Below, piece by piece: positions 3,607-52,360 of a DNA stretch of 64,000 nt (within the stretch, counting starts at the first letter, position 1; each line of letters opens with the position of its first letter). Source of the stretch: Cepaea nemoralis (Eukaryota > Mollusca > Gastropoda > Stylommatophora > Helicidae). The notes beneath the pieces are model-generated. The model was given only the letters and a program-made list of their open reading frames with translations, was not told the origin of the DNA and made no database searches. The stretch is from the NCBI GenBank assembly GCA_014155875.1, contig JACEFZ010022373.1, forward strand, positions 347,001 through 411,000, given 5' to 3'. A program made the translations under genes and the position numbers.

Positions 3607-3840
3607 GCCCGATTTGTGGCGACTGGGTTACGGACGCAATTCGTAATCACGCAAACCGCGTTCGGAACACAGATATAGGCGATTTGGCAGCAGACTGCCT
3701 TGTGTTGTTTTTCTTGTAATGGTATATGTGCCGACCGTTCAGAAAGTTATGGCAAGCTGTTGAAAGTAAACTTGCTAAGAAATCACAAACAGCCAAATGA
3801 TGTCGGGGTTGAATGCGGCGTCCTGTAAACTAAAAGCAAC
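3607..3840 (+). repeat. SINE1 copy
   Basis: Diverged member of the main SINE family of the window. It has GGTTACGGACGCAATTCG near the head, then CGTTCAGAAAG-TATGGCAAGC and the 3' block GTTGAATGCGGCGTCCTGTAAA, which corresponds to GTTGACTGCAACGTCCTGTA in better copies. Confidence 0.7.
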
Positions 3841-4394: not shown

Positions 4395-5275
4395 ATACTC
4401 ACGCAAACCTCAGGTCCTGTATGGCATCACATTGATGTTGGACAACAGGATGCTTTCATCCGACATACAGGACTTCGCGTTGGAGCTGAAGCCACGAACA
4501 CAAGCAAACAAGCAAGCACAAGCATATAGCAGTGTGGGTATTAAAACTGCTTTGTAGACTTTCAGCTTTGTTTGCAGGCTTTTTCCATTTCTATCCCACA
4601 CATTTTGGTACAGTGTACCAAAGGATGCTCTGGCCTTGGAGATTCTTGCATTCACTTAGTCATCAATTGTGGCAGCTTGTGACACAGTTCTGCCAAGATA
4701 GGTGAATTGGTCCACAACACTTAGTCCATGACCATTCACTTTGATATTTGGCACGGTGTGATTAATCCTGGATTTGGCTGGTACATAACTACAGTCTTCT
4801 CCAAATTGATATTGATCCCAAAGTTGGCACAGGATATGATAAAGCTGAAACATTGTGTTGCATGTCTGACTCTGAGTTGGCATGTAGAGCGCAATCATCA
4901 GCAAACAGGAGCTCACTAACGGTGTCGCTGTTAGCTTTGGATTAAGCTTTCAGTCTTCTGAGATTGAACACTTTTCCATCCGTGCGGTAGTAGATGTCTA
5001 TTCCAATAGCATTGTTCTCGAAGGCATTCGTCAACATAGCTGAAAACATGAGGCTGAACAGTGTTGGTGCCAGGACACATTCTTTCTTCACTCCATTGGT
5101 GACACGAAAAGGCTCAGACAGTTCACAATTTGTTTGTATTCTTGCCTGCATACCATCGTGAAATAGCAGCATTGTTTGGACAAACTTTCGTGGACAGCCA
5201 TATTTAGCCATAATCTTCCATATTCCAATGCTGACTGTATCAAAGGCTTTGGTAAGGTCAAAGAATGTTAAATTA
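4395..5275 (-). pseudogene. LINE-A reverse-transcriptase fragment
   Basis: Minus-strand reverse-transcriptase domain in three broken frames. In order from 5275 downward they carry DLTKAFDTVS (RT block with a catalytic Asp), IMAKYGCPRKFV, SEPFRVTNGVKKECVLAPTLFSLM, NLRRLKA, the ELLFADDCA active-site box (FADD) and KVNGHGLSVVDQFTYLG. It is the same family as the plus-strand copy at 13.0-17.3 kb. At least three stops or frameshifts separate the pieces. The usual Q-G in VKQGCVLAP reads K-E here. It lies inside the C1q gene intron. Confidence 0.85.
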
Positions 5276-5570
5276 CTGTTCTTAGTATGTACACCGCATT
5301 TATTGTACCCTTGCCTTCTACAAACCCACATTGTTCTTCTCCTATTTCAGGTTGTATTTTTTTCCTAACTCTTTACATGATAATTCTTTGCAAAATCTTC
5401 TTGATGTGACTCATTATACTAATTGTTCGAAGTTGATCACATTCCAAGGCTCCTGATTTCTTTGGGATTGCAATAAATACAGAATTGCATAATTCATGAG
5501 GTATATATCTCCAGTATCATATATGGTATTCAGGAGTCTGGTAACTTTATCTATTCCGTATTCCGTATGA
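5276..5570 (-). pseudogene. LINE-B reverse-transcriptase fragment fused to LINE-A
   Basis: Directly upstream of the LINE-A piece on the same strand, the sequence switches to a different LINE family. It carries IPKKSGALECDQ, RTISIMSH and IQPEIGEEQCGFVEGKGT, and matches the plus-strand copy at 35550-36764, not LINE-A. The switch falls near 5275, at an equivalent point in both reverse transcriptases (after the CGF-KGT block, before the DxxKAFD block). Confidence 0.75.
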
Positions 5571-5789
5571 AGTCATACAATCATATATTATATGATGATC
5601 ATACACACAACGGTGAAGTCATACATTCATATATTATATGATTATCATACACATCGTTGTAATCGGACACATGCCCAAGGGTATGTGCCAGGTTTCCTAC
5701 ATTTACCCTGTGTTATACAGTTATTGTATTGTTCTTGTGTGTTTCAGTATCGCTTGTTTATCTTGTCATGTCCATTGTTTGTGTTTGTG

Positions 5790-5822
<33 letters not shown>

Positions 5823-5830
5823 GTATGTAT
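5571..5830. repeat. 44-bp duplication and AT/GT simple repeats
   Basis: A roughly 44-bp unit (GAAGTCATACA-TCATATATTATATGAT...) occurs twice in tandem between about 5568 and 5655. Unassigned sequence follows, then a (TA)n/(GT) run at 5788-5825. Confidence 0.6.
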
Positions 5831-6043
5831 ATGCAACTACCATCACTGGCCTTATATTAAAGATCATCTGCGACGAGACCACGAGGACTTCCAAGAAGAT
5901 AATGGATTGGCGGCAACAGAGACATTGTACAACCACACGGAATGACACTATCCAGTGCCGCCCACCGGGCGCTGGAACGTAAATTATTCCTCTCCACGAT
6001 GCTACACGGCAGAAGTGGAAGATGATGATGATGATGATGATGA

Positions 6044-6048
<5 letters not shown>
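5831..6048 (+). mobile_element. LINE-C 3' end with (GAT)n tail
   Basis: 5831-6020 is the reverse complement match of 56655-56860, the 3' end of the LINE-C copy near 57 kb. It includes GATCATCTGCGACGAGACCACG, which encodes the basic Arg-rich C-terminus, and GCCCACCGGGCGCTGGAACG. It is severely 5'-truncated, as expected for target-primed insertion. It ends in a pure GAT triplet run (6021-6048), as the second copy does. Confidence 0.8.
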
Positions 6049-6085
<37 letters not shown>

Positions 6086-6089
<4 letters not shown>

Positions 6090-6482
6090 TTAATGGGCAG
6101 TACTATGCAGATTTCCTTATCAAACTAAGAAAGACTGTGACCAGAAAACGAGCGATAGCGCGTACGCAAATTCTGCCTTTGCTTCAAGACAACGAGCCCT
6201 CCCATAAAGCACGGCTTGTGCTGCAAACTGCCAACGATTTGAATATTGAAATTCTTCCACAGCCACCATATTCTCCAGATTTAGCTCCATCATACTTTTT
6301 TCTTTTCCAAAATCTTAAACCTGAAAGGAAATCGTTTCGTCGGTTACGAAGATGTCATACTGGCTAATGATAACTGGTTTAGTTCGAAAAATAGGTTGGT
6401 TTATTCTGAAGGTCTTTTCAATATCACGCAGAGAGGGCAGAAATGCATACATTCAGGAGGTGGCTATATTGAGAAAGAATGA
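6086..6482 (+). pseudogene. mariner-type transposase fragment
   Basis: The C-terminal half of a mariner (Tc1/mariner superfamily, DDE) transposase. Residues 1-93 of the first frame hold the second catalytic Asp region LLQDNEPSHKA (family pattern LHDNAPxH) and, 34 residues on, YSPDLAPSYFFLF, containing the third catalytic Asp (family pattern SPDLAPSDYHLF). After a frameshift near 6350 the frame continues through SEGLFNI, RGQKCI and GGGYIEKE to a stop at 6482, the normal mariner C-terminus. The N-terminal DNA-binding half is replaced by an AT microsatellite (6046-6086). No terminal inverted repeats were found. It is inactive. Confidence 0.85.
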
Positions 6483-6538
6483 GCACTATGCCAAATTCCA
6501 ATTTTCTCCGTCTAATCATTCATGGTCAGGCTAAAGAA

Positions 6539-7110
6539 TTATGAGAAGCCTCTTGAACTTCCTATGTACTTGAACCTCTTTACTTGTTTCAAGGGATGTT
6601 CGGTTAGGTGAATTGTTGTTGCTTTTTCTTCTTTAGTTATAGTCAACACCTCTGTTTTACTTGTGCTAATTTTCATGTTATGTTCCCTACACATTTCGTT
6701 TACACTATTCATGTGGTCTTGTAATTCAGCTTCTGATTTTGCTATTAGTGCTTGGTCGTCCGCAAACAGGAGTTCTCTAATGGTTAGATTTGCAGATGGT
6801 TCTTCTTCTGTGTTCTCGTCATGCAGTGTTCTTGCGGTCTCTGTTTGGCTGGTTTCTTTACATATGTTGTCAATATATGTTATGAACAAGAGAGGGGACA
6901 GGACACAACCTTGTCCTACTCCGTATCATATTGTTCAGTGAGCAACCAAAATACCTGTTTGCGGACGGCATTCGCCACATACCTAAGCAATTGGATGCTT
7001 GCCTGAATGCCTACGGCGACTTCTTCTGACCAACCCATGGTGCATAATTCATTCAAAATAAATGCTTTGTTTAATTCTACCACACCTGTTAATGTTTCTT
7101 TCATGCTTTT
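6539..7110 (-). pseudogene. LINE-D reverse-transcriptase fragment
   Basis: Minus strand, same family as 33143-34020. It shares SANLTIRELLFADDQALIAKSEAELQDH (broken here as LTIRELLFADDQ...), followed by MKISTSKTEV and HPLKQVK. The FADD catalytic box is intact, but the protein stops at KYIGSSRG. Upstream pieces (6916-7104) are in another frame and degraded. It abuts the mariner relic at 6539. Confidence 0.8.
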
Positions 7111-16455: not shown

Positions 16456-17340
16456 CTCACTGAGGCAACTCCTTGCTCTCAATCGCAGGGAAGATACTGG
16501 CCAGAATTCTTCTCAATCGCCTCACAGCCCATCTCGATCAAGGTCTTCTTCCTGAGAGTCAATGTGGCTTCAGAAAAGAACGTGGAACTGTTGACATGAT
16601 TTTCGCTGCAAGGCAGCTGCAAGAGAAATGTCAGGAACAGAACTACGAAATGTTCTCCACTTTCATTGACCTTACCAAGGCTTTTGATACAGTCAGCAGA
16701 GAAGGACTGTGGAAGATTATGGCGAAATATGGCTGTCCACAAAAGTTTGTCAAAATAGTGCGGCTATTTTATGATGGTATACAGGCAAGAGTACATGATA
16801 ATGGTGAACTGTCTGAGCCCTTTCCTGTCACAATTGGAGTGAAGCAAGGATGTGTCCTGGCACCAACACAGTTCAGCCTCATTCTTTCAGCTATGCTGAC
16901 GAATGGCTTCCAGAACAATGACATTGGAATAGACATCAACTACCGCATGGATGGAAGAATGTTCAATCTCAGAAGACTGAAAGCTAACACCAAAACTATC
17001 AGCGACACCGTCAGAGAGCTGCTGTTTGCTGATGATTGCATTCTATATGCCAACTCACAGGCAGACATGCACCACAATGTTCCAGCTTTCCCGTGTGCTT
17101 GTGCCAACCTTGGGCTCAATATCAACTTGGAGAAGACTGTATTAATGTACCAGCCAGCTCCAGGGAATAATCACACCGTGCCAAATATCAAAGTGAATGT
17201 TCATGGACTAAGTGTTGTGGACAAATTCACTTATCTCGACAGCACTGTGTCACAAGCTGCCACAATTGATGACGAAGTTAATGCAATAATCTTCAAGGTC
17301 AGCGCGGCCTTTGGCAGACTGCACAAGAATGCATGGGACA
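16456..17340 (+). pseudogene. LINE-A reverse transcriptase, 3' half
   Basis: A continuous frame of about 295 codons carries the RT core in order: AGKILARILLNRL, QCGFRKERGTVDM, FIDLTKAFDTVSREGLW (catalytic Asp), GVKQGCVLAPTQFSL, VRELLFADDC (FADD active site), LNINLEKT, then the FTYLDS box (usual FTYLGS, Gly lost). It stops being LINE after AWDRSG, where the hammerhead-bearing insertion starts, so the thumb/C-terminus and 3' UTR are missing. It is the downstream part of the copy starting near 13.0 kb and matches the minus copy at 4395-5275. Confidence 0.88.
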
Positions 17341-17421
17341 GATCCGGTCAGGGATATGCACTGCTGACGAGCTCAAATGAGGGCGAAACTCGAGTATAGT
17401 GCTTCCATATTGACGTGGATA
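17341..17421 (+). ncRNA. Type I hammerhead ribozyme, copy 1
   Basis: The core boxes are all present: CTGACGA (17364-17370), stem II GCTC/GGGC with loop AAATGA (17371-17384), GAA plus A15.1 (17385-17388), a 2-bp stem III A-C/G-T with TCGA loop (17388-17395), and a GTA cleavage triplet, so the predicted cut is 17396/17397. Stem I GCACTG/TAGTGC (17358-17363 with 17397-17402) extends through ATAT/ATAT, GTCA/TGAC and ATCC/GGAT helices (outer pair 17342-17345 with 17417-17420), with internal loops suited to the stabilising loop contact. The short stem III is typical of retroelement hammerheads. Confidence 0.85.
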
Positions 17422-17742
17422 AGCCTTAGGTTCATACCAGAATGCGATCGGTGTTGCCAGTAGTGGGTTGTGCTCAATATTTAAATTTCAAATCCCGAAA
17501 TAACCACATAATCAATTGATTATTGCTCACTGGATTTAGGAGGCCTGGTGTTCCTTGCCAGTGAGAAGTCCTGATCGTTCGGGTCCCATCGATTGACGGA
17601 CGTCGGTCGCGGCGATTGGGCAATCTTGAGCATAGCCTACGATGGGTAGCGTTGTGATGTTCTGTTGTGATAATTTGGTGTGTCCAGTGTGTGCCGCGTG
17701 GTTACACACCCGCTTCACACGCGTGATCCGGGACTGTTTCCG

Positions 17743-17823
17743 GATCCGGTCAGGGATATGCACTACTGACGAGCTCAAATGAGGGCGAAACTCGAGTATA
17801 GTGCTTCCATATTGACGTGGATA
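17743..17823 (+). ncRNA. Type I hammerhead ribozyme, copy 2
   Basis: Identical in every core position to copy 1 and offset by exactly 402 nt. CTGACGA is at 17766-17772 and the predicted cut is 17798/17799. The only stem I difference, GCACTA for GCACTG, turns the pair next to the core from G-T into A-T. Both copies therefore keep pairing, which supports function rather than chance. Confidence 0.85.
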
Positions 17824-17920
17824 GGCCTTAGGTTCATACCAGAATGCGATCGGCGTTGCCAGTAGTGGGTTGTGCTCAATATTTAAATTTCAAATCCCGA
17901 AATAACCACATAATCAATTG

Positions 17921-18469
17921 TGTATCTCTTATAACAGTTTTATGTTTTTGTTTATACCTAAGAGTATACTAGATTATTGTAATCGCCGTGGAGGATTAGG
18001 TGAGAACGTTTAAGCTGTAAAACTTCACATGTGCTCATGGGAGGTAGTGGGTTCGTTTCCTACATTTTTCAGTTAGACTGATACGTTGACACGTTGAGTA
18101 ATGAATCATTGAGGAAGTCTATGAGTGACTGATTCGTTCCAAGTCTGAATCTCCGGTTTATCTGTACTTCTTTATCTTTTTGTACTTCCAACTCTCTTCC
18201 AACTGTCAATATCTCTCTCACCCGGTCTCTTTCGAACTGACCTTTGAATTCCTTCCTTTCTGCCACTTACTAATTTTTAAATATACCCTATTTGTGAGTA
18301 AGATTCATTATGCGTTTTTTGTTACTCTCGAACGTACGACTGTAACACGCTTTTCTTGCTAATTTATAAGCGTACGTCTTAAACCTGACATAAACCTTAG
18401 AGACCTTCAAATCTACTTCGCGCAACTTCATCCCCCCCCCTTCCCCACCGCCGCCCAATGCAACAACTC
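17921..18469. other. Unassigned, possible tRNA-like head
   Basis: Mostly featureless. Near 18045-18060 GTGGGTTCGTTTCC resembles a Pol III B box, but no convincing A box is at the right distance, so no SINE is called. Confidence 0.3.
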
Positions 18470-24215: not shown

Positions 24216-24251
24216 TTGATTCATTCATTGTCTAGATATATGTAACGGTGT

Positions 24252-25300
24252 AATGTTCCTGCATTTATCCCCTCTGGATATGTGTCACAAAGTCTGTACC
24301 TGCATTTATCCCCTCTGGATATGTGTCACAAAGTCTGTACCTGCATTTATCCCCTCTGGATATGTGTCACACAGTCTGTACCTGCATTTATCCCCTCTGG
24401 ATATGTGTCACAAAGTCTGTACCTGCATTTATCCCCTCTGGATATGTGTCACAAAGTTCTGTACTGCATTTATCCCCTCTGGATATGTGTCACACAGTCT
24501 GTACCTGCATTTATTCCCCTCTGGATATGTGTCACACAGTCTGTACCTCGCATTTTATCCCCTCTGGCTATGTGTCACACAGTCTCTGTACCTGCATCTT
24601 CTCCCCTATGGATATGTGTCACACAGTCTGTACCTGCATTTATCCCCTCTGGATAGTGTCACACAGTCTGTACTGCATTTATCCCCTCTGGATATGTGTC
24701 ACACAGTCTGTAACCTGCATTTACTCCCTCTGGATATGTGTCACACAGATGTTACCTGCCATTTATCCCCTCTCTGGATATGTGTCACACAGTCTGTACC
24801 TGCATTTATCCCCTCTTGATATGTGTCACACAGTCTGTACTGCATTTATCCCCTCTGGATATGTGTCACACAGTCTGTACCTGCATTTATCCCCTCTGGT
24901 ATATGTGTCACACAGTCTCTGTACCTGCATTATCCCCTCTGGATATGTGTCACACAGTCTGTACCTGCATTTATCCCCTCTGGATATGTGTCACCACGTC
25001 TGTACCTGCATTTATCCCCTCTGGATATGTGTCACACAGTCTGTACCTGCATTTATCCCCTCTGGATATGTGTCACACAGTCTGTACCTGCATTTATCCC
25101 CTCTGGATATGTGTCACACAGTCTGTACCTGCATTTATCCCCTCTGGATATTGTGTCACACAGTCTGTACCTGCATTCTATCCCCTATGGATATGTGTCA
25201 CACAGTCTGTTACCTGCATTTATCCTCTTGGATATGTGTCACACAGTCTGTACCTGCATTTATCCCCTCTGGATATGTGTCACACAGTCTGTACCTGCAT
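24252..25300. repeat. 41-bp satellite S6, block a
   Basis: About 25 copies of a 41-bp unit with CTGCATTTATCCCCTCTGG and ATATGTGTCACACAGTCTGTAC. Unlike the next block, many units carry single-base insertions or deletions (near 24545, 24655, 24715, 24765, 25150). Confidence 0.95.
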
Positions 25301-28300
25301 TTATTCCGTTTAGATATGTGAAATGTTGTCTGTTCCTGCATTTATTCCGTTTAGATATGTGAAACGTTGTCTGTTCCTGCATTTATCCCGCCTAGATATG
25401 TGAAACGTTGTCTGTTCCTGCATTTATTCCGTTTAGATATGTGAAATGTTGTCTGTTCCTGCATTTATTCCGTCTAGATATGTGAAATGTTGTCTGTTCC
25501 TGCATTTATTCCGTTTAGATATGTGAAATGTTGTCTGTTCCTGCATTTATTCCGTTTAGATATGTGAAATGTTGTCTGTTCCTGCATTTATCCCGTCTAG
25601 ATATGTGAAATGTTGTCTGTTCCTGCATTTATTCCGTTTAGATATGTGAAATGTTGTCTGTTCCTGCATTTATTCCGTTTAGATATGTGAAATGTTGTCT
25701 GTTCCTGCATTTATTCCGTTTAGATATGTGAAATGTTGTCTGTTCCTGCATTTATTCCGTTTAGATATGTGAAATGTTGTCTGTTCCTGCATTTATTCCG
25801 TTTAGATATGTGAAATGTTGTCTGTTCCTGCATTTATCCCGCCTAGATATGTGAAACGTTGTCTGTTCCTGCATTTATCCCGTCTAGATATGTGAAACGT
25901 TGTCTGTTCCTGCATTTATTCCGTTTAGATATGTGAAATGTTGTCTGTTCCTGCATTTATTCCGTTTAGATATGTGAAATGTTGTCTGTTCCTGCATTTA
26001 TTCCGTTTAGATATGTGAAATGTTGTCTGTTCCTGCATTTATTCCGTTTAGATATGTGAAATGTTGTCTGTTCCTGCATTTATTCCGTTTAGATATGTGA
26101 AACGTTGTCTGTTCCTGCATTTATCCCGCCTAGATATGTGAAACGTTGTCTGTTCCTGCATTTATTCCGTTTAGATATGTGAAATGTTGTCTGTTCCTGC
26201 ATTTATTCCGTCTAGATATGTGAAATGTTGTCTGTTCCTGCATTTATTCCGTTTAGATATGTGAATGTTGTCTGTTCCTGCATTTATTCCGTTTAGATAT
26301 GTGAAATGTTGTCTGTTCCTGCATTTATCCCGTCTAGATATGTGAAATGTTGTCTGTTCCTGCATTTATTCCGTTTAGATATGTGAAATGTTGTCTGTTC
26401 CTGCATTTATTCCGTTTAGATATGTGAAATGTTGTCTGTTCTGCATTTATTCCGTTTAGATATGTGAAATGTTGTCTGTTCCTGCATTTATTCCGTTTAG
26501 ATATGTGAATGTTGTCTGTTCCTGCATTTATTCCGTTTAGATATGTGAAATGTTGTCTGTTCCTGCATTTATCCCGCCTAGATATGTGAAACGTTGTCTG
26601 TTCCTGCATTTATCCCGTCTAGATATGTGAAACGTTGTCTGTTCCTGCATTTATTCCGTTTAGATATGTGAAATGTTGTCTGTTCCTGCATTTATTCCGT
26701 TTAGATATGTGAAATGTTGTCTGTTCCTGCATTTATTCCGTTTAGATATGTGAAATGTTGTCTGTTCCTGCATTTATTCCGTTTAGATATGTGAAATGTT
26801 GTCTGTTCCTGCATTTATTCCGTTTAGATATGTGAAATGTTGTCAGTTCCTGCATTTATTCCGTTTAGATATGTGAAATGTTGTCTGTTCCTGCATTTAT
26901 CCCGCCTAGATATGTGAAACGTTGTCTGTTCCTGCATTTATCCCGTCTAGATATGTGAAACGTTGTCTGTTCCTGCATTTATCCCGTCTAGATATGTGAA
27001 ACGTTTCTGTTTCCTGCATTTATTCCGTTTAGATATGTGAAACGTTGTCTGTTCCTGCATTTATTCCGTTTAGATATGTGAAATGTTGTCTGTTCCTGCA
27101 TTTATTCCGTTTAGATATGTGAAATGTTGTCTGTTCCTGCATTTATTCCGTTTAGATAGTTGAAATGTTGTCTGTTCCTGCATTTATTCCGTTTAGATAT
27201 GTGAAATGTTGTCTTTTCCTGCATTTATTCCGTTTAGATATGTGAAATGTTGTCTGTTCCTGCATTTATTCCGTTTAGATATGTGAAATGTTGTCTGTTC
27301 CTGCATTTATTCCGTTTAGATATGTGAAATGGTGTCTGTTCCTGCATTTATCCCGTCTAGATATGTGAAATGTTGTCTGTTCCTGCATTTATTCCGTTTA
27401 GATATGTGAAACGTTGTCTGTTCCTGCATTTATTCCGTTTAGATATGTGAAATGTTGTCTGTTCCTTCATTTATTCCGTTTAGATATGTGAAATGTTGTC
27501 TGTTCCTGCATTTATTCCGTTTAGATATGTGAAATGTTGTCTGTTCCTGCATTTATCCCGCCTAGATATGTGAAACGTTGTCTGTTCCTGCATTTATCCC
27601 GTCTAGATATGTGAAACGTTGTCTGTTCCTGCATTTATTCCGTTTGGATATGTGAAATGTTGTCTGTTCCTGCATTTATTCCGTTTAGATATGTGAAATG
27701 TTGTCTGTTCCTGCATTTATTCCGTTTAGATATGTGAAATGTTGTCTGTTCCTGCATTTATTCCGTTTAGATATGTGAAATGTTGTCTGTTCCTGCATTT
27801 ATTCCGTTTAGATATGTGAAATGTTGTCTGTTCCTGCATTTATCCCGCCTAGATATGTGAAACGTTGTCTGTTCCTGCATTTATCCGTCTAGATATGTGA
27901 AACGTTGTCTGTTCCTGCATTTATTCCGTTTAGATATGTGAAATGTTGTCTGTTCCTGCATTTATTCCGTTTAGATATGTGAAATGTTGTCTGTTCCTGC
28001 ATTTATTCCGTTTAGATATGTGAAATGTTGTCTGTTCCTGCATTTATTCCGTTTAGATATGTGAAATGTTGTCTGTTCCTGCATTTATCCCGCCTAGATA
28101 TGTGAAACGTTGTCTGTTCCTGCATTTATCCCGTCTAGATATGTGAAACGTTGTCTGTTCCTGCATTTATTCCGTTTAGATATGTGAAATGTTGTCTGTT
28201 CCTGCATTTATTCCGTTTAGATATGTGAAATGTTGTCTGTTCCTGCATTTATTCCGTTTAGATATGTGAAATGTTGTCTGTTCCTGCATTTATTCCGTTT

Positions 28301-28545
28301 AGATATGTGAAATGTTGTCTGTTCCTGCATTTATCCCGCCTAGATATGTGAAACGTTGTCTGTTCCTGCATTTATCCCGTCTAGATATGTGAAACGTTGT
28401 CTGTTCCTGCATTTATTCCGTTTAGATATGTGAAATGTTGTCTGTTCCTGCATTTATTCCGTTTAGATATGTGAAATGTTGTCTGTTCCTGCATTTATTC
28501 CGTTTAGATATGTGAAATGTTGTCTGTTCCTGCATTTATCCCGTC
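25301..28545. repeat. 41-bp satellite S6, block b, with higher-order repeats
   Basis: About 79 copies of a 41-bp unit with CTGCATTTATTCCGTTTAG and ATATGTGAAATGTTGTCTGTTC. Variant units (CCCGCCTAG followed by CCCGTCTAG, with GAAACG) recur at about 26573, 26901, 27557, 27844, 28089 and 28335. Spacings are 246-328 bp, i.e. 6-8 unit higher-order repeats that become regular at 6 units at the right end. Confidence 0.95.
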
Positions 28546-29263
28546 TAGATATGTGTAACGCTGTGTGTTCCAAGTCTTTTACCGTTTAAATGTGTGTAAC
28601 GCTGTCTGTACCTACACTTATACCGTCTAGATATGTGTAACACTGTTAACGGTCTTTTACCAAATTAGATGTTTATAACGCTGTCCTTTCCCGGTCTTTT
28701 ACCGTTTAGATGTGTGTAACGCTGTCTGTTCCTGCACTAATGCCGTCTAGATATGTGTAACCTTGTCTGTTCCTGCACTTATCCCGTCTAGATATGTGTA
28801 ACACTGTCTGTTCCTGCAGTTATCCCGTCTAGATATGTGTTACACTGTCTGTTCTCGGACTTTTACAGTTTAGATATGTGTAACGCTGTTTGTTCTCTGT
28901 CTTTTACTGTTTATATATGTGTAACGCGCTCTGTTCCTGCACTTACCCCGTTTAGATATTTGTATCGATGTATGTTCCTGCACGTATCCTGTCTAGATAT
29001 GTGTAACGCTGTCTGTTCTAGTCTGTTAATGCTATCTGTTACCGGTCTTTCTCCGTTTAGATGTGTGTAACGCTGTCTGTTCCCGGTCTTTTACCGTTTA
29101 GATATGTGTAACGCTGTCTATTCTCTGTCTTTTACTGTTTAGATGTATTTAACACTGTCGTTCCCGGTCTTTTACCATTTAGATATGTGTAACGCTGTCT
29201 GTTCCCTGTCTTTTACCGGTTAGATATGTACAACACTGTCTGTTCCCTATCGTTTACCGTTTA

Positions 29264-38968: not shown

Positions 38969-39744
38969 CTATTCCTCTTCTTCAGGAGCTGGATGTCTAG
39001 ACAGGAAATCAGCTCCAACATTTTCCTTCCCAGGTATATACTCCACTGTAAAGTGGTATGGCTGAAGTAGCAACGACAACCGCATCAAACGGGCGTTGAG
39101 CTTCTGAGACGTGGCCAGGAATATCAAAGGTTGATGATCCGATTGAACTCGAAACTGAACTCCATACAAATAAGGCTGGAATTTTTGTACGGCCCATACG
39201 AGAGCCAATACTCTCTCTCAACGGTCGAATAATTCCTCTTAGCCGGGAGAAGTTTCTTGCTTGCGTATGCCACTGGTTTCAAAACTGAAGCATCGTATTT
39301 TCCTTCCTGTAACAAAGCTGCCCCAATCCCAATCCCACTTGCATCCGTTCTCAACACAAATGGTTTGGAAAGGTCCGGGAGCTGTAACACAGGTTTGCTG
39401 ACCAAGGCCTCCTTTAACTGACTGTAGGCACTCTCACATTCTGGTGTCCAAACTATTTAGTCTGGGAATCCCTTTTTCAAGGTTTCTGTTAATGGAGCTC
39501 CCAGTTCCGTGAAATGTGGGATAAATTTGTGGTAGAACCCACACAACGAGAGAAACGATCGCACATCCTTCTTCGTTTTTGGCCCTGGAGCAGTTCTGAT
39601 TTTCTCTAGGTTCTTTTCCTCTGGGACAATGTGTCCTGGAGTGATGGTGTGACCTAGAAATTCCAGAGTCTGGTAACGGATCATGCACTTGGTTGGGCGA
39701 GCTGTAAGCCCTGCTTCCTTGAGCTTATTGAAAACACTTTCCAA
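38969..39744 (-). pseudogene. Gypsy-1 RT connection and RNase H, broken
   Basis: Continues the RT frame after an in-frame TAA at 39745: FLGHTITPG, VRSFLSLCGFYHKFIPHF (the Gypsy FLGL-YYRRFI region), a second TAA near 39450, then RNase H with FVLRTDASGIGIGAAL (catalytic Asp), YSTVERE, a frameshift near 39215, MALVWAVQKF, SDHQPLIFL and FTVEYIPGKENVGADFLSR (last catalytic Asp). It ends at an EEEE tail 66 nt before the LTR. All domain landmarks are present, only the frame is interrupted, which indicates recent decay or sequence errors. Confidence 0.85.
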
Positions 39745-41307
39745 TTATTGTAAATGGTCATCTAAGCTGTCACTGGAAATCAGAATATCATCCATGAATG
39801 AGATGATGGACGGATCCTTTAAAGGATCTAGTAAAGTCCTCATCATGCGAGTAAACACACTAGGTGCATTGCTGAGTCCAAAGGACATGACCTTGAATTC
39901 ATAATGTCCACTGGGGGTACTGAAGGCCAGAAGGGGTCGAACCTCTGGTTTGACCGGAATCTGATAATACCCGCGACTCAGATCCACCTTTGAGAAATAC
40001 CTTGCCTTATGGAGCCTCGCGAATAACTGAGTTGGATTCGGCAAAGGTTCCACCTGAAATTGTGTATGACTGTTCAGAAGTCGGTAGTCTATACACAACC
40101 GGTGTTCTCCACTTGGTTTTCGTAACAAAACTACCCCCGCATTGTATGGGGATGTGGATGGTGCAATCACGTCATCCTCCAACAGTTTCTGTATTTCCTC
40201 CTCCAGTACCTTTTCTTTAGAGAATGGCACTGGGTAAACCTTTTGGCGAACAGGCTCTTGAGTGGTAAAAGTCATCTCGAACTCCACCAACCTCGTTCGT
40301 CCTGGTTTATCAGTCAGGATCTCCTTATGAGACTCAAGAACCTGGGTTATCTTTTCCCTCTCCTTGGAAGTCAGATCAGGGTTCACCTGTACATCCTTGT
40401 AGGTTTCCTGGTGTACCAGGGGATATTCCCTTCCCTCGTTGGTTCCCACTTCTGTCTCTACTGCAACTGCCATTGCCAGGAGGTGAGCTGCTTTTTCTCC
40501 TGGTCTCTCTTCGTATTTTCGCAAGAGATTGATATGGAAAATCTTCGACTTTCCCCGGATCTGGATCTGATAGTTGGTTCTGGATATCACCCTTTCCACG
40601 GGAAATGGTCCTTGCCAACCTATCTCCAGTTTGTTGTTTCCCGTTGGGAGTAGCAACAATACTTTGTCTCCCACCTCTAGAGATCTGTCTTTAGACCTAC
40701 GGTTGTAGTAAGCCGCATGTCTTTTTCTGGCCTTTTTCAAATTTTGATTTGCCAGAGTCCATCCCTTGTGAAGCTTTTCTTTCAGTTCCTCCACATATTT
40801 GTAAGAAGAGATCACTTCTTCTGACGTCCCCTCTTCAGTCCAACTCCTCAACATGGCTTCCAACGGTCCTTTGATTGGACGACCAAACAGCAACGTAGCG
40901 GGTGGTAGTCCTGTTGAGCCATGAGGAACTTCCCGATAGGCAAAGAGGGCTGCTGAGATATATTCATCCCACCTATCAGGTTTTTCCTGCGCTAGTTTCC
41001 TGAGCATTGTCATCAACGTGCCGTTGAAACGCTCTACTTGTCCATTGGCTTGAGGGTGGTAAGGGCTGGTATGGATATGGTTCGAGTGGAATACCCTAAA
41101 TACCTCCTCCATAAGTTTTCCACAAAACTGGGACCCATTGTCCGTCAGTATTAGATCAGGAAAGCCTAATCTTGTAAAGGCCTCCATCAGTGCGTCCGCC
41201 ACTCTTTTCGAGTCAATTGTGGTCAACGGTATGGCTTCACCCCACATTGTACAGCAATCCACCATTGTACATGTTCCTCTTCCTAGTCCTAGGAAGTGGA
41301 CCCACAA
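39745..41307 (-). CDS. Gypsy-1 integrase C-terminal part and reverse transcriptase
   Basis: A 520-codon frame. The integrase core has LTDNGSQF with catalytic Asp about residue 56 and QANGQVERFNGTL with Glu about 92, a DD35E spacing. A GPY/F-like module follows (KLEIGWQGPFPVERV, about 225). Then the RT: VPFSKEKVLEEEIQKLLEDDVI, STSPYNAGVVLLRKPSGEHRLC, VDLSRGYYQIPV (catalytic Asp), SFGLSNAPSVFTRMM and SFMDDILISS (the F-x-DD active site) near the end. Integrase N-terminal to RT in one frame is the key structural oddity. The first integrase Asp is in the preceding frame. The start is arbitrary, because the frame is entered by a frameshift near 41265. Confidence 0.9.
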   Translation of the reverse strand: MWVHFLGLGRGTCTMVDCCTMWGEAIPLTTIDSKRVADALMEAFTRLGFPDLILTDNGSQFCGKLMEEVFRVFHSNHIHTSPYHPQANGQVERFNGTLMTMLRKLAQEKPDRWDEYISAALFAYREVPHGSTGLPPATLLFGRPIKGPLEAMLRSWTEEGTSEEVISSYKYVEELKEKLHKGWTLANQNLKKARKRHAAYYNRRSKDRSLEVGDKVLLLLPTGNNKLEIGWQGPFPVERVISRTNYQIQIRGKSKIFHINLLRKYEERPGEKAAHLLAMAVAVETEVGTNEGREYPLVHQETYKDVQVNPDLTSKEREKITQVLESHKEILTDKPGRTRLVEFEMTFTTQEPVRQKVYPVPFSKEKVLEEEIQKLLEDDVIAPSTSPYNAGVVLLRKPSGEHRLCIDYRLLNSHTQFQVEPLPNPTQLFARLHKARYFSKVDLSRGYYQIPVKPEVRPLLAFSTPSGHYEFKVMSFGLSNAPSVFTRMMRTLLDPLKDPSIISFMDDILISSDSLDDHLQ

Positions 41308-42682
41308 TATCGATGGCTACCCTCTCGAAAGGAGAGTTCATGATGGGCATTTCACCCAAGACCACCGGCGCTGTCCAGTGTTTCGGTGCCACCCTCTGGC
41401 ACTCAGGGAACGACTTCACATACCGACGCACATCACCTGTCATTCCCGGCCAATAGTAGTGGCAGGAAATTCGCTGTATGGTGGCGGCAATACCCATGTG
41501 CCCACTGAATGAGATGGTATGCCCCATATGAAGAATCTGGGAACGGTGGGCCTTTGGGACCACCAACTGACCCTGTAGGTTGTCTCCCCTTCCGGCTCTC
41601 CTGTAGAGTATCCTATTCTTCATATAGTACTGCCCCCGTTTGGGTGGATCAGCACTTTTCTGCAGCTTTTTGTAGGAAGGACGTAGAGTAGCATCCTCAC
41701 TCTGGGCAGTTCGCAACTCCCCTGGCAGTGGGTTAGTCACATTGACTTCTGCCTCATCCGTTTTCGTCTGAGAGCGAGTCTCAATTGCTCCCATATGGAT
41801 TGGCTCCCTGGGCATTACCAGAAAGACATACCGGCAACCAAGGATTACTGGAAAAATTGGATCGGTCAATACAGCGGCCTTGATGGTGCCGGTGACATAT
41901 CTTGACCGAATCTCCACTCTGGCAATGGGCAATTTCATGGCTACAGCACTCTTCTGTGCAGGCTGTATCTCCATGGTTTCACCTGTGAATTGTTCTGGAT
42001 GTACTAGATCCGCAGAAATCCCGGCCTCCCCGTCCAGTCCTGTGTCGTATAAACACTCCACTTGACGACCGTTAACTTCTACCAATTCCACTACAGGTGG
42101 TTTTTCCTGGTCTGGAGTCTCTCCTTCGGCCTCGACCTGTTCGGTGGGCTCCACCTTAGGTTTCCCGGGGCACACGACGAATTTAGAGTCTCCTGACTTT
42201 CCCCTGCAGTCAATAGCATTGTGTGTATTCGACCTGCAGTGTTTGCACCATTTCCCTGTCCTAGATTTTCTTGTGCCGGACTTGAGTGAGCTCTCCTGGT
42301 GGTGAGCATCCTTATCGACCTTTGCATTGTCAGTGTCCACCTGCGTTGAAGTCACTTGACATGCCGCGAAGTGAGGGTTCTTAGCCTTCGATTTGCAATC
42401 CCTCGTATTGTGAGAAGGTGACTTACAAATCGAACACCACTTCTCCGACCATGGTCGTTTTTGTGTAAAGCTTGAAGTTTTCTTGCTTTCCCCCTTCGTC
42501 TTCTCCGAACTCTCCTCTGAAGTTTTGACATATGGTTCCACCTTCTTAGTTCCTGTGCTTTTTGCTTTCTTCAGGTTATGTTTTTCCTGACTTTTGGTGT
42601 TTGTAGAAATGTTCTCTGATGCCTCCCCATGGACCTCGACGAACCGTTCTGTCAATTTCGTCACCATGTCGATTCGTTCCAT
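41237..42682 (-). CDS. Gypsy-1 nucleocapsid, protease and integrase N-terminus
   Basis: A 481-codon frame. Two CCHC knuckles are at about residues 83-96 (WCSICKSPSHNTRDC) and 146-159 (WCKHCRSNTHNAIDC), both C-x2-C-x4-H-x4-C. The aspartic protease DTG is at about 213-215 (LYDTGLDG, where most have DTGA), and its C-terminal strand is near 280 (PVILGCRYV). The integrase zinc-binding domain starts with GHTISFSGHMG (His 388 and 395), but its first Cys is replaced by Phe (SFPECQ, about 425). The first catalytic Asp of the core is in VAIDIVGP (about 458). The frame then shifts. It functions in RNA binding, polyprotein cleavage and integration. Confidence 0.88.
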   Translation of the reverse strand: MERIDMVTKLTERFVEVHGEASENISTNTKSQEKHNLKKAKSTGTKKVEPYVKTSEESSEKTKGESKKTSSFTQKRPWSEKWCSICKSPSHNTRDCKSKAKNPHFAACQVTSTQVDTDNAKVDKDAHHQESSLKSGTRKSRTGKWCKHCRSNTHNAIDCRGKSGDSKFVVCPGKPKVEPTEQVEAEGETPDQEKPPVVELVEVNGRQVECLYDTGLDGEAGISADLVHPEQFTGETMEIQPAQKSAVAMKLPIARVEIRSRYVTGTIKAAVLTDPIFPVILGCRYVFLVMPREPIHMGAIETRSQTKTDEAEVNVTNPLPGELRTAQSEDATLRPSYKKLQKSADPPKRGQYYMKNRILYRRAGRGDNLQGQLVVPKAHRSQILHMGHTISFSGHMGIAATIQRISCHYYWPGMTGDVRRYVKSFPECQRVAPKHWTAPVVLGEMPIMNSPFERVAIDIVGPLPRTRKRNMYNGGLLYNVG

Positions 42683-43594
42683 GTCCCTTGTTCTCCCAAG
42701 AATGTCCTGAGAGGTTTCGACATTTGCTTCCGCATCTGGTCGACTACCGTGAGCTCTTCCAGACTCTCATAGTCATGCGCAAACCCAGCCAAATCCATCC
42801 ACTTATGGAGATATGCTTTCAGACGCAGACTATAGGCGGCGAACAACTCCCCCGGTTCTCGTTTCGCTCCTCGAAATTTTTTTCCGGTAGGTATGGGACG
42901 TAACTTCGAATCTTTTCAGCAAAGCCGTCTTCAACCCGTCATAATTGTTCTCATGTCCTGGTGGCAGGCGAGAATAAACCTCGTAACCGGTCCCGCGTAA
43001 TCCCTGGGATAGCTTGAGATTCCATTTCTCACGCTCCAGACCCATAGCAACTGACATAGCCTCGAAGCGTTGAAGGTACTGGTCAATCTTCTCTTTGTCC
43101 TCCTCGTAGATCGCTAGAGGGAACTTCATAGCATGGTAGCTATGTCCACTTACTGGTGTTGAGCCAGGGAGAGAGGAACCTCCCACTGCTCCCTCAGTTT
43201 CCCCACTAGATTTCCTCTTAAGCTCGAGTTCCCGCATCCGGTACTCATGCTCCATTTTCTGAGCCTCTTGCTCCGCTTTCCGTTGCTTAGCAGCTTGCTC
43301 AACCTCAAGTATCTTAGCAGCTTGCTCTGCTTCCAGTTTTTTAGCTTCTATTTCCAGCCTTCTCATGGCTCGCTCAGCCTCAAGTTGCCTAGCAGCTTGT
43401 TCTGCTTCCAATTTCTTAGCTGCTTGCTCTGCCTCCATCCTTCTCAATTCCAACTCGGCCTTCCGATCTTCCCTTTCTGCTTGACGATACTCCCTCTCCA
43501 ATTCCTGTATGTAATCCGTTAGAGCAGAACCCGACAATCCCATTTCTTCCCCCTTTGAACTAAGTTCCGCCGTAGTCAGTTTAGGAGTGGCCAT
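42661..43594 (-). pseudogene. Gypsy-1 Gag (coiled-coil capsid protein), frameshifted
   Basis: The start at 43594 (MATPKLTTAELSSKGEEMGL) is the first ATG after the primer site. Residues about 40-140 are an Ala/Glu/Lys/Arg-rich heptad-like repeat (AEQAAKKLEAEQAARQLEAE pattern), a long coiled coil. A capsid-like region follows (MKFPLAIYEEDKEKIDQYLQRFEAM, WNLKLSQGLRG, LLKRFEVT). A frameshift near 42840 moves the reading into YSLRLKAYLHKWMDLAGFAHDYESLEELTVVDQ (42661-42846), the C-terminal capsid half, which then overlaps the knuckle-bearing frame. The family is typical of Gypsy elements with SCAN-like capsids. Confidence 0.8.
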
Positions 43595-43899
43595 TTTACA
43601 GAGAGGTAACTCAACAGATAGAGTATAGATTATCTCTAAACCAATACATAGCTAATGACAAAATACTATTAATCTATATATTTATAACACACCACACAAC
43701 ACAACACAATCACTCAGTGACAAGAGTAGAATCAGGACCACAGACCTATGCAGACGTGTGAAGTGTGAACAGGTAAGATAAGTCCTAACACCTATCCACA
43801 TTCACTCTAGCTGGATTCTCACTAATAGGATATCTCCATCCTCTAACTAAAGATTCCGTGTTAAAAGATCCCGTTGTCTAAAGATCCCGTTGTCCAAAG

Positions 43900-48438: not shown

Positions 48439-49794
48439 TTATCTCCCATGTTTCCATTTCCTCAGTAACTCCAAGTTTCTTTGAATAAGTGCTATCTCCA
48501 CATCAATATCTTCTTCCTCATGTAAAGAAATATTTTCTTCCATGCTACTATCTCTATTAGATTCTGAATTTTCATCCATTTCTTCTTCTTCATCTGTATG
48601 TCTGTTGCTAGCAGCCGCTAATTTTTTCCTTTCTATATCTAATCTAATTTGTGTATCATAGTTTCTTAACGACCTTTCGAGTAGGGGCATGTACTCGTCG
48701 CTTGATGAATTTTCTCTAATTCTTCTCTGTCTTTTCACTTCTTTTTCTCTCTGTCTCTCTATTCTCCTTTTCGCTGCTTGTCTAGTATTTTTAAATGGAG
48801 CGTTTACCTCTTCTTCCATAGATTCCACACTATCATAATAACCCTCATACGTATTTTTCTCTTCTTTTATCAGCGTTTTCGGTATTGTCTGTTCCTGAGT
48901 ATCATCATAAACTGATGTTGTTATTAATTGACTTTGTACTGGATCTTTTTTAAAATCTGGGGGTATTGTAGCTCTTCTGACCATTTGTTCATCTAAGTAT
49001 AAGGCGTCTGAATAATAATAATTATTATAATTATTGTTTCCCTTATCATAATTATCTCTTCTTAAGTGTTCTACATGTGCCCTTGCTATATGTCCCGTGA
49101 TCTGGTTCTTTATACTGTATGATACATTTCCTAACTTTTCTAAAATGTAATAACCTGGAACCCAACGAGCATCAAATTTAGAGTTCCTTCTATGCTTCTT
49201 ATAATAAACTCTATCACCTACTTTGAATTCCTGTAATTTTGTATTTCCGTTTCTGCATCTTTTCTGTCTTTCTCTAGCTTTAATTATATTGTTCTTTAAT
49301 CTCACATGCGCTTTGTGCATTTCTTGTATAATAACTTCCTGAAAATCTTCCCCCATATATTTACGTCTTGGTTTTAACAGATTGTCAATAGGTAGTATAG
49401 GCTCTCTCCTGTGTAATAAATAAAATGGTGAAAACCCTGTACTCTCATTTTGATTTGTGCGTATTGCGCTTAGTGCAGGTCCCAGGAATAGATCCCAATC
49501 TTTTTCATGTTCATCGACAATCTTTGCTATAATGTCGTACAATGTTCTATGTTGTCTTTCGTTCTCAGCATTTGAAGAAGGTCTATAGTATGAGGTCTTT
49601 ATATGGTTTATATTCAAATCTTTTAATAACTTTTCAAATTTCTTGTTCACACATTCTTTACAATTATCCGTGAGTACGATCTGTGGGCAACTAAATCTTT
49701 GTATGAATTCCTGTAAAAAAAATATTAATGATAGTATCTGCGCTCTTATCTGGGATTGCATAAACTTCCGGCCACAGACTATAGATATCCACAA
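48439..49794 (-). CDS. Gypsy-2 integrase core, GPY/F module and charged tail
   Basis: A 451-codon frame, the second half of the integrase. LTDNCKECVNKKF holds the second catalytic Asp (about residue 43; most families have TDNGxEF), and RPSSNAENERQHRT holds the Glu (about 79), DD35E. The GPY/F-like module is VGDRVYYKKHRRNSKFDARWVPGYYILEKLG-region (about 195-240, KFDARWVPGYYIL). The C-terminal 200 residues are very rich in E, D, R, K and N (NKGNNNYNNYYYS, then RQAAKRRIERQREKEVKRQRR, then EEEEMDENSES). They may be a host-factor or chromatin-binding extension; this is inference. It is entered by a frameshift at the A8 run 49715-49722. Confidence 0.88.
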   Translation of the reverse strand: MWISIVCGRKFMQSQIRAQILSLIFFLQEFIQRFSCPQIVLTDNCKECVNKKFEKLLKDLNINHIKTSYYRPSSNAENERQHRTLYDIIAKIVDEHEKDWDLFLGPALSAIRTNQNESTGFSPFYLLHRREPILPIDNLLKPRRKYMGEDFQEVIIQEMHKAHVRLKNNIIKARERQKRCRNGNTKLQEFKVGDRVYYKKHRRNSKFDARWVPGYYILEKLGNVSYSIKNQITGHIARAHVEHLRRDNYDKGNNNYNNYYYSDALYLDEQMVRRATIPPDFKKDPVQSQLITTSVYDDTQEQTIPKTLIKEEKNTYEGYYDSVESMEEEVNAPFKNTRQAAKRRIERQREKEVKRQRRIRENSSSDEYMPLLERSLRNYDTQIRLDIERKKLAAASNRHTDEEEEMDENSESNRDSSMEENISLHEEEDIDVEIALIQRNLELLRKWKHGR

Positions 49795-50560
49795 TATGAA
49801 TTAAATATACGTTCCCCGATAGTGTTCTAGGGTGAGGACCTGATATATCTAAGCAGACTTTTTGCATAGGAAACTGAGGAATATCTGTATCCTGTAAGGG
49901 ACATTTGATTGTTTTCATAAATCTTAGTCTACATTTTTCACACGTATCGACATATTTACAAGCAGTGTTAAATAAATTCGGCCAATAATATTTGTTCGTA
50001 AGTGCTTTCACTAACTTATCACGACCGAGATGACCATTCTCATCATGATACGCCTTTATAACTTCACTTTCCAAATGTTTTGGAATATATTTCCTTAACT
50101 GTTCGTTTCTTTCATTCATGTAATATAAATGATCATCATCTTGCAACACTAAATAATTCTTCGTATACTTGTTCTCATCCGTTTCTTTTAATTTCTGTTT
50201 TATTTCTAAAACTTTTGGATCTAATTCTTGTTCTTCTTTCATATTAAATTGTATTAAATGTGGGTCTTCTGCTCTAGGTTCAGACTCTTGATCCGACGGT
50301 AAACTCTCACAATCTTCTCTATTTATTATGGCAGAATCTAATATATTTACTTGCCATTTTCTGTCGTCTAATTCCGGTTCACCTTCGTCTTCCGTGTTTC
50401 CTGATGACTGTAGATACGGGATTCTGGACAATAAATCTGCACATGTATTGTTCCTACCTGGTACGTATTCTATTCTAGTATTGTATCCCTGTAGATTCAA
50501 CGCCCATGTCTGTATTTTTCTGTTCAGCACTGGAGCTTCTAATAACGATTTTAAAGGCAT
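49691..50560 (-). CDS. Gypsy-2 RNase H C-terminus and integrase N-terminus
   Basis: A 289-codon frame, in the same frame as the RT above it. It opens with the end of RNase H (IEYVPGRNNTCADLLSR, final catalytic Asp). The integrase HHCC zinc domain is at about 172-210 (HDENGHLGRDKL ... CKYVDTCEKC). The first catalytic Asp is in VCLDISGPHPRTLSG (about 238). It terminates at HTKI because of a one-base shift in the A8 homopolymer 49715-49722. The rest of the domain is intact in the next frame. Confidence 0.88.
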   Translation of the reverse strand: MPLKSLLEAPVLNRKIQTWALNLQGYNTRIEYVPGRNNTCADLLSRIPYLQSSGNTEDEGEPELDDRKWQVNILDSAIINREDCESLPSDQESEPRAEDPHLIQFNMKEEQELDPKVLEIKQKLKETDENKYTKNYLVLQDDDHLYYMNERNEQLRKYIPKHLESEVIKAYHDENGHLGRDKLVKALTNKYYWPNLFNTACKYVDTCEKCRLRFMKTIKCPLQDTDIPQFPMQKVCLDISGPHPRTLSGNVYLIHIVDIYSLWPEVYAIPDKSADTIINIFFTGIHTKI

Positions 50561-52094
50561 GTGGTCAGTTCTAATAATAAAATTTGCGTTATGTAGATAA
50601 TAGTTAAGTTTCTGAAGAGCATAATGAATAGCATAAGCTTCCTTCTCAATAGTCGACCATTTGCGCTGATACCTGCTAAGTTTATGTGATAAAAAATAGA
50701 TTGGCCTTTAATTTTTAACCCCTGGTATTCCAGATTCTTTTCCTTCATATGGTTGAACCAAACACGCTCCTATAGCATTATCTAAAGCATCTGTATACAA
50801 TATTAGCTGTTTATTCAAATCTGGATGTGTCAATAGTGGCACTACTGTTAAGCTATTTTTTAAAAACTGAAACGCTTTTTGACATTCATCATCCCACTTA
50901 AATCTAGCGTATTTGCCAGTTAGGTTAGTAATGGGCTCTGCTATTTTTGAGAACCCTGGAATGAAACGACGATAATACCCACAAGTTCCGATAAACGCAC
51001 GAACTTCTTTTACGTTAGTTGGAGGAGGTAGTTCTCTAATAACCTTTACCTTATCCTGATCTGGTTTAATTCCGTCTCTATTAATAATATACCCCAAATA
51101 CTTTGTTTCTGTTTTTAAAAATTCGCATTTACTGAGCTTCAGTTTAACATCATGTATTCTTAATCTGTCAAATACTAATTTTACATGTTTTAGGTGATCT
51201 TGTACGTCTCCTGCTGTGCAAATCAAAATGTCATCTATGAATGCCAATGCAAACTTTTGCATGCCCTCCAATACTTGATTTATTAATAGCATATAATGAG
51301 AAGGCGCCGTACGTACTCCAAAAGGCATTCGTAAAAATTCGTAAGAACCTGCGTGTGTACAAAAAGCACTCTTATTTTGGGCATCTGGGGACATAGGTAT
51401 ACACCAAAATCCTGATCTTGCATCTAACGTAGTGAAGAAGGTAGACCCATTAAGTAAGCCTAAAATATCATCAATCACCGGCAATGGGTACGCTACATTC
51501 TTAGTGATTTTGTTCAACGCCCGGTAGTCACAACAGAATCGATGTGAACCATCGGCTTTGGTCACAATTACTATCGGAGATGACCATTCTGATTTCGATC
51601 TTGTTATTATTCCTGCTTTCAACATATCTTCTATTGCCTTTTCGACAATTTCTCTATTTCTTAAGGGAGTTCTATACGGTTTCAAACTAATTGGTGGGTG
51701 ATCTCCAGTATCTATTTCCATAGTGACTGTTTTGGTCTTCCCCAATTCTAAGTCGTTAATTGCAAAACCATCTTGATTTTCTTTTATAAGTCGTTCTAAT
51801 ATTTCCTTATTTTCTGGTGGAGTTTTTATCTGTGCTAAGAATTCTTGTTCTCTTGTTATTTTGTCTACTGAATGTATTTGAGATGTATGTCTTCTGAATG
51901 GATGGATCAATTCATCATTCTGCACGTTCCATTTCCTTCCGCCTCTATGTCTGTTATTAATTCTTTCCCTAAGAGTTTCTGAATAATTTATTCCCGGTAT
52001 TTCTACTCTATCTGTTGCTAATATGCCATTAATATCATGTTCTACTTTGGCTATTACACATCCTCTGTATAATTTAATTTCTCTACCTGTGTTG
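50551..52094 (-). CDS. Gypsy-2 reverse transcriptase with RNase H start
   Basis: The frame runs from the piggyBac junction at 52094 through the 405 codons from 51925 to a TAA at 50708-50710, then continues in the same frame into RNase H. Landmarks counted from 51925: EIDTGDHPPISLKPYR (about 70), SPIVIVTKADGSHRFC (115), FTTLDARSGFW (catalytic Asp 168), MPFGVRTAPSHYM (200), LAFIDDILICT (active-site Asp pair 231-232), YLGYIINRDGI, ELPPPTNVKEVRAFIGTCGYYRRFIPGFS, then RNase H LILYTDALDNAIGACLV (catalytic Asp). Only the single TAA breaks pol here. It copies element RNA into cDNA in a virus-like particle. Confidence 0.92.
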
Positions 52095-52360
52095 TTAACT
52101 CTTTCGCTACCGTGATCCCATCTGTGGGCACGTTGTATTTCCTGAGATGGCAGTCCGCCGTTTTAGTGCCACAAAATGATCAGTGGTTTATTTCACATAT
52201 TTCTGCTCCGTTTCGCAATTTTAAGTTACAGTAAACTAAAAAGTAGTACAGCCGAAAGATCTCTACGCCATCTCGGAGCGGTCAATCGTTTTCTAATTTT
52301 GGATTCTTGTGAATTTTCAGTTTTAAGGTAGTGTTAATTTGTTTGTTTTGGTTTTTCACA

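Follow-up and report, generated by a model that had tools for sequence, protein, structure and literature searches.

Paired insertions of a hammerhead retrozyme in Cepaea nemoralis suggest two-sided integration by Penelope-like elements

Many insertions of a small hammerhead-bearing retroelement in the genome of Cepaea nemoralis (assembly GCA_014155875.1) consist of two tandem arrays that meet head to head within a short target duplication. In nearly every pair typed at both ends, one outer end lies at each of two preferred 3' sites, here termed S and L, the inner ends are scattered over the repeat unit, and variants are shared by the two halves. These features can be read directly from the genomic copies, as can one insertion of a Penelope-like element (PLE) with a similar layout. 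Judging from these sequences, a PLE probably moves the retrozyme by two-sided target-primed reverse transcription, in which the RNA template is circular or multimeric.

One insertion lies in a 64,000-nt stretch of contig JACEFZ010022373.1 (hereafter the window), for which the original prediction had described two direct repeats carrying intact hammerhead ribozymes 402 nt apart. The repeats, at 17341-17523 and 17743-17925, match over 183 nt at 97% identity (98.3% over the first 178 nt), their spacing is indeed 402 nt, and both motifs lie where they had been placed (Table 1). That description also holds for the catalytic core, for stem II with its 4 bp, for stem III with its 2 bp and for the GUA triplet, which define the two predicted cuts. 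Both copies read GCACT(G/A)-CTGACGA-GCTC-AAATGA-GGGC-GAA-AC-TCGA-GT-A-TAGTGC, and the difference between them, G at 17363 and A at 17765, faces T17397 and T17799, which keeps the pairing. Only one detail departs from the prediction: among the outer helices of stem I, the ATAT/ATAT helix is not recovered, since the minimum-energy fold pairs GGA with UCC there.

Table 1. Features of the retrozyme insertion and its left neighbour, in window coordinates
Feature	Position	Strand	Basis
Retrozyme insertion	17341..17925	+	direct repeats spaced 402; unit found in 40 scored genomic candidates
Retrozyme full unit 1, 402 nt	17341-17742	+	repeat comparison
Retrozyme partial unit 2	17743 to about 17920	+	repeat comparison
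Type I hammerhead 1	17358..17402	+	predicted cut 17396/17397; RF00163 30.6 bits, E 1.8e-5
Type I hammerhead 2	17760..17804	+	predicted cut 17798/17799; RF00163 31.7 bits, E 7.6e-6
Palindrome ACTCGAGT, stem III and loop	17388..17395	+	sequence
Predicted stem-loop GGTTGT / ATAACC, S site in loop	17466..17505	+	local folds of unit
S site (unit about 145)	17485 in unit 1; about 17887 in unit 2	+	sister 3' ends, unit 143-153
Palindrome ATAATCAATTGATTAT, L site at its middle	17508..17523	+	sequence and sister 3' ends
L site (unit about 176-178), the window copy's own 3' end	17918..17920	+	repeat match stops at unit 178; sister ends at unit 175-184, one at 165
LINE-type reverse transcriptase fragment	16464..17340	+	RVT_1 E 1.2e-30; joined to retrozyme 5' end

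A covariance-model check had been proposed for these motifs. The Rfam model Hammerhead_1 (RF00163) covers both hammerheads end to end in a search by E-value threshold (E-values calculated for 801 bases), and both scores lie slightly below the gathering score of 34; an Rfam search of the whole window at the gathering score returned no match. A loose hammerhead core pattern occurs five times in the window against 1.1 expected, and two of the five are the retrozyme motifs. The minimum-energy hammerhead folds surpass shuffles to a moderate degree only (z -1.9 and -2.2), so that the identification is carried by the catalytic core and by the presence of the repeat in many genomic copies. The circular fold of the unit reaches -153.0 kcal/mol, compared with -122.6 (sd 4.5) for 60 mononucleotide shuffles, which are a rough control. 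The palindrome ACTCGAGT could, from its sequence, pair two RNAs or two units. The stem-loop around the S site is a prediction only, its region folding no better than shuffles; its 3' arm reads ATAACC in the window copy and ACAACC in most others.

The window copy is one-sided, ends at the L site (about 17920) and shows no target duplication in the flank overlap scan. Its 5' junction, 17340/17341, adjoins a LINE-type reverse transcriptase fragment that is 86% identical to 5265-4590 (minus strand). That second sequence continues past the point of the junction, and the retrozyme sits where a LINE-type reading frame is interrupted; in the stretch compared to the right of the copy, the LINE is not taken up again. 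The locus is present in the assembly as two copies, the second (L069) being 97.7% identical over 2.8 kb, both flanks included, with the same junctions.

The window element is a metazoan non-LTR retrozyme, a further member of a kind described from coral, mussel and axolotl with tandem units of 150-450 bp, arranged as dimers to multimers, and a GC content below 50% (Cervera and de la Pena 2020; PMC7229834). Like these, it has type I hammerheads in short non-coding tandem units, here of 402 nt (PMC7229834), and the prediction of a non-coding retroelement of this kind is supported by a multicopy, hammerhead-bearing unit whose longest ATG frame, when circularised, has 46 aa. The GC content of the unit (0.495; 0.500 for the majority sequence) is at the limit of the published range. 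A short stem III is common to this retrozyme, the axolotl hammerhead HHR_Amex2 and invertebrate examples, and axolotl hammerheads with a weak stem III are reported to be poor cleavers as single motifs but efficient ones when they form dimers (PMC7229834). The target duplications of metazoan retrozymes, where present, exceed 4 bp, as do those of the sister copies here, the window copy having none, and metazoan retrozymes yield abundant linear and circular RNA (PMC7229834), as the present element may do.

The LTR retrozymes of plants are likewise small and non-autonomous, with two hammerheads and, in their case, circular RNA intermediates (PMC7229834). They differ in having type III hammerheads, LTRs with PBS and PPT, a 4-bp target site duplication, RNAs of 600-800 nt and a GC content above 55%; the snail element has type I topology, and its sister copies overlap at their flanks by at least 12 nt. 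Nor is it itself a PLE. The unit contains no RT or GIY-YIG frame, and a tblastn search with a PLE protein from the host genome found no match in loci L001-L040 and only 59834-59337 in the window, so that the element stands independent of a coding Penelope element, membership in which would have refuted the original prediction. That one match (59337-59834, minus strand) is a degenerate fragment of a PLE endonuclease region, with 29% identity to the PLE protein of locus L041 (E 1e-11). What the retrozyme does have are marks of Penelope-like integration: two alternative 3' ends that differ by a tail of about 30-40 nt, and an inverted adjacent copy with a short target duplication. The Penelope link, which had entered the prediction as a resemblance and as a possible refutation, is now likely to concern the mode of integration.

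A search of the 3.47-Gb assembly with the unit gave 1452 first-look candidates, and 40 of these, when scored, hold 138 matches. The search proposed for further 402-nt units therefore succeeded, revealing dispersed tandem copies whose full-length units, the window's own aside, are 95-99% identical in the 40 scored candidates. The scored matches fall on 36 contigs and form 37 loci. Counting each of two duplicate pairs once leaves 35 distinct insertions; L069 was left out as the duplicate of the window locus, and L038 as that of L027, with which it shares junctions and similar flanks. Some arrays are long, with 18 full units in L024 and 10 or more in L037, one end of each not being reached. In L022, about 2.1 kb of unrelated sequence lies inside the retrozyme array (4491-6639), with no frame longer than 89 aa.

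The head-to-head layout, in which a minus-strand array meets a plus-strand array and the 3' ends of the element point toward both flanks, occurs in 22 of the 35 insertions (L002, L003, L008, L011, L014, L016, L017, L020, L021, L022, L025-L032, L037, L039, L065 and L067). In the other 13, either a single side is present or the structure could not be fully traced (L001, which is the window copy, L004, L009, L023, L024, L033-L036, L040, L066, L068 and L070). As delimited by blast, the 3' ends cluster at unit positions 143-153 (S) and 175-184 (L), one end at 165 (L021) being counted as L. The two sites, at about unit 145 and unit 176, are located 89 and 120 nt downstream of the predicted cut, which leaves a tail of about 31 nt between them that includes an AC-rich stretch.

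The two sites are not combined at random. Among the 19 pairs typed at both ends, 18 join one S to one L, one joins two S ends (L016) and none joins two L ends; for the first 17 pairs, of which 16 were mixed, random pairing reaches 16 with P 0.0004. In the remaining three pairs, one end lies elsewhere (near unit 18 in L030, at 317 in L039) or was not reached (L037). Nine single insertions end at L (L001, L004, L009, L023, L024, L034, L035, L040 and L068), two at S (L036 and L070) and two elsewhere (L033 at 76, L066 at 17). Since one-sided insertions with a typed 3' end are mostly at L (9/11, one of these unresolved at its other end), it is suggested that L is the start of the first strand and S that of the second. 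The left ends of L030 and L066 lie at nearly the same place, and unit 17-18 may be a rare third start site.

The published model leaves LINEs open as movers of retrozymes (PMC7229834), and a LINE could make the first strand by ordinary target-primed reverse transcription, while twin priming would supply the inverted half, with the second DNA end priming at a chance place inside the RNA. LINEs are plentiful around the copies, and the one-sided insertions would be ordinary products of such a mover. In twin priming as usually described, however, the inverted part has an outer end whose position varies, whereas here both outer ends lie at the same two sites, with one of each in 18 of 19 typed pairs. 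Furthermore, the 3' ends listed above have neither an A-rich tail nor a LINE-like 3' end. We consider it unlikely that a LINE is responsible.

Flank overlaps, which include any microhomology, were scanned in 33 insertions, that is, in all but L024 and L037. An overlap of at least 12 nt was found in 20 of 21 scanned pairs, compared with 1 of 1056 swaps of flanks between insertions. Two of these overlaps lie in microsatellites; the other 18 measure 12, 13 or 14 nt (8, 7 and 3 cases) and have an AT content of 79%, against 59% for the window. The sole pair missed, L030, had its boundary set about 17 nt off, and at least 9 shared nucleotides are visible there. Of 12 single insertions scanned, two (L004 and L068) have a 12-nt overlap.

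The 36 inner ends, where the two halves of a pair meet, are scattered over the unit (KS P 0.70), and the inner ends of the two halves are unrelated in the 18 pairs available (KS P 0.88), with a median circular distance of 104 where a uniform distribution gives 100.5. This result argues against an alternative that retains PLE-type integration but derives the head-to-head pairs from hairpin self-priming of one cDNA, as for rotifer Penelope on an antisense template. Self-priming has been proposed for the same layout (PMC3846280), and in one of the 18 pairs (L002) the inner ends do lie within 10 nt of each other, although 0.94 such pairs are expected by chance. Because that mechanism predicts matching positions at the inner junctions, it is already disfavoured, and we regard it as quite improbable here.

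None of the 36 inner ends lies at the ribozyme cut (unit 57), the nearest being at 51 and 63. Together with the arrays of many units, this shows that the RNA copied exceeded a single self-cleaved linear monomer in length, as expected of a circle or a multimer. Private variants are common to both halves in L017, L022, L025 and L026. In the 17 insertions measured (three were skipped for short overlap), the halves differ from each other by 0.012 and from other halves by 0.024, and none of 20000 shuffled pairings was as close. No other half is closer in 11 of the 17; the halves of L031 and L037 are no closer to each other than to other halves, and L008, L027 and L030 give weak support. A single 402-nt circle as the template of every copy was considered and rejected, because L016, L031 and L032 contain unlike units, which require either that some templates were multimeric or that sequence was exchanged later.

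Across the copies, the hammerhead is no better conserved than the rest of the unit. Summed over its 12 core sites, there are 10 variant-bearing insertions where 11.6 are expected, and the 45 hammerhead nucleotides have 63 where the rest of the unit predicts 43.6. The latter value is at or above 97.6% of random draws, making the hammerhead, if anything, the more variable part. This fits variability that is mostly post-insertion change in young copies and lends no support to selection. Ten sites have a minor allele of at least 8%, two of them inside the hammerhead, at N7 and loop II, positions that tolerate change. That the element is a mere satellite repeat, immobile by now, in which the hammerheads are relics and which owes its spread to amplification and inversion at the DNA level, is highly improbable: it would suit the long tandem arrays (L024, L037), the unlike units in some of them, the absence of excess conservation and the two assembled copies of the window locus, but not the target duplications and the two preferred 3' ends of insertions that are dispersed in the genome, or the placement of both common hammerhead variants at tolerant positions.

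The integration of the retrozyme by a PLE can be envisaged as follows, with ribozyme activity, RNA circles and the enzyme itself being what we infer. Transcripts of tandem units would be cut by their hammerheads into 402-nt monomers, perhaps as dimers held through the palindromic stem III, and the monomers may be circularised by a host ligase, as published animal retrozymes suggest. A PLE protein with RT and GIY-YIG endonuclease domains, acting in trans, would cut both strands of an AT-rich target about 12-14 bp apart. Reverse transcription would then start inside the RNA at S and L, 89 and about 120 nt past the cut, with one site used per strand. After one or more units had been copied from the circular or multimeric template, the two cDNAs would be joined at the ends corresponding to the 5' side of the element, giving two head-to-head tandem arrays within a short target duplication. 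The window copy would be a one-sided product ending at the L site. It is a more specific proposition, to which we give even chances, that one PLE complex and one RNA serve each insertion, with the start sites divided between the cut strands and only one cDNA receiving the tail.

Several published properties of PLEs are in line with this scheme. PLEs have been named strong or likely movers of animal retrozymes on the basis of shared hammerheads and co-occurrence (PMC7229834, PMC7761336). The PLE protein PAc of Anolis cuts and extends both DNA strands, prefers ATT, and starts inside its RNA at either of two neighbouring sites, of which the main one lies in an AC-rich stem loop; its genomic tail of 30-40 bp is the stretch between these sites (PMC11167929). 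With its hammerhead cut at 26 and its main start at 111-118 nt of the ORF, PAc has 85-92 nt between cut and start, compared with 89 nt between the cut and S in the retrozyme (PMC11167929). In the rotifer Adineta vaga, Penelope copies have an inverted pLTR, target site duplications of 8-10 bp and a 31-bp tail on one inverted pLTR, and pLTRs sufficed to move an unrelated gene in trans; the authors favoured self-priming for the inverted copies (PMC3846280).

The retrozyme thus resembles GIY-YIG PLEs in its inverted partner, short target duplication, AT-rich targets and tail of about 31 nt on one end. It differs from them in having no coding frame and in being built of many short units where PLEs have an ORF and pLTRs, and its hammerhead, with a 2-bp stem III, is fuller than the minimal PLE type. 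The rule of one S and one L per pair also sets it apart from PAc, for which in vitro assays gave no difference in start site between strands (PMC11167929).

PLEs with RT and GIY-YIG domains are abundant in the snail genome, where a GIY-YIG search gave at least 107 matches in 150 scored of 2019 candidates. Four loci, L041-L044, form one PLE family; in L041 and L042, GIY-YIG exceeds its curated cut-off and RVT_1 falls just short of its own (E 2e-6 to 8e-6). By blastn, 19 of the 20 GIY-YIG loci read match this family, and the remaining one (L045) matches nothing. The best named relatives of the host PLE protein include Physella, Biomphalaria, Arion, Bradybaena and Littorina. Like the retrozyme, the family has 3' ends that fall into two groups: in L082 coordinates, 7 ends lie at 224-238 and 5 at 263-280, two of the latter perhaps from one duplicated locus. 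In a single insertion, L073, two copies stand head to head with a 13-bp overlap, and each group contributes one of the 3' ends. No target duplication was found at three further PLE loci, C1462 (with two S-like PLE ends), C18264 and C11361. Because the copies at L041, L074 and L075 stop at the same place and have a common 3' flank, their ends were not treated as independent; this flank, ctagctgacccggcccgg, is an interspersed repeat that also occurs near L017, L027, L030 and L038.

The PLE family differs from the retrozyme in its longer tail and in the far greater distance between its hammerhead-like motif and the start, the motif preceding the shorter end by about 208 nt. This degenerate motif, TTGACAAAGATTCTGAGAATCGAAACGTC, was seen in the PLE 3' region of L044 at about 3630-3660; Rfam searches of L041 and L042 gave nothing up to E 5. 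The start regions of the two elements are not significantly similar (354 of 1000 shuffles as good), and the motif GCTYAATAT before the S site in both, striking by eye, was dropped as not significant. A PLE with a full hammerhead that could act as helper was not found among the 20 GIY-YIG loci read. The family supports the mechanism in this host, and from its sequence would be a candidate helper at most. Against the involvement of a PLE stand this failure to find a helper, the differences just named, and the insertions that do not fit, namely L016 with its two S ends and the ends of L030, L066, L033 and L039. The scarcity of overlaps among one-sided copies, the equal start sites of PAc on both strands, the unlike halves or units of some insertions and the absence of excess hammerhead conservation also count against it.

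As far as our searches reach, the paired two-site insertion scar of retrozymes is undescribed. The main text of PMC7229834 contains no occurrence of inverted, head-to-head, orientation or tail; in PMC7761336, inverted appears once, in a reference title, and head-to-head is absent. No paired retrozyme insertions are described in the literature searched, which was covered by titles and the beginnings of abstracts, with few subscription journals and no supplements. The scars provide countable evidence for the link between retrozymes and PLEs proposed in the 2020 papers, and the rule of one S and one L with a 12-14-nt overlap is open to testing wherever an animal genome contains retrozymes or PLEs. 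It bears also on the integration of PLEs themselves, for which self-priming and two-strand extension compete in print (PMC3846280, PMC11167929). If true, strand-divided start sites would explain the optional tail and inverted pLTR of Penelope elements, and animal retrozymes would be PLE parasites that mimic the PLE start module.

Elsewhere in the window, two blocks of long minus-strand frames (39124-43651 and 48439-52162) are likely LTR retroelements; of three of their frames searched against Pfam, two matched RT, RNase H-like or integrase zinc-binding domains. A very long tandem array with a 41-nt unit and about 117 copies occupies 24233-29018, and related arrays extend to 30936.
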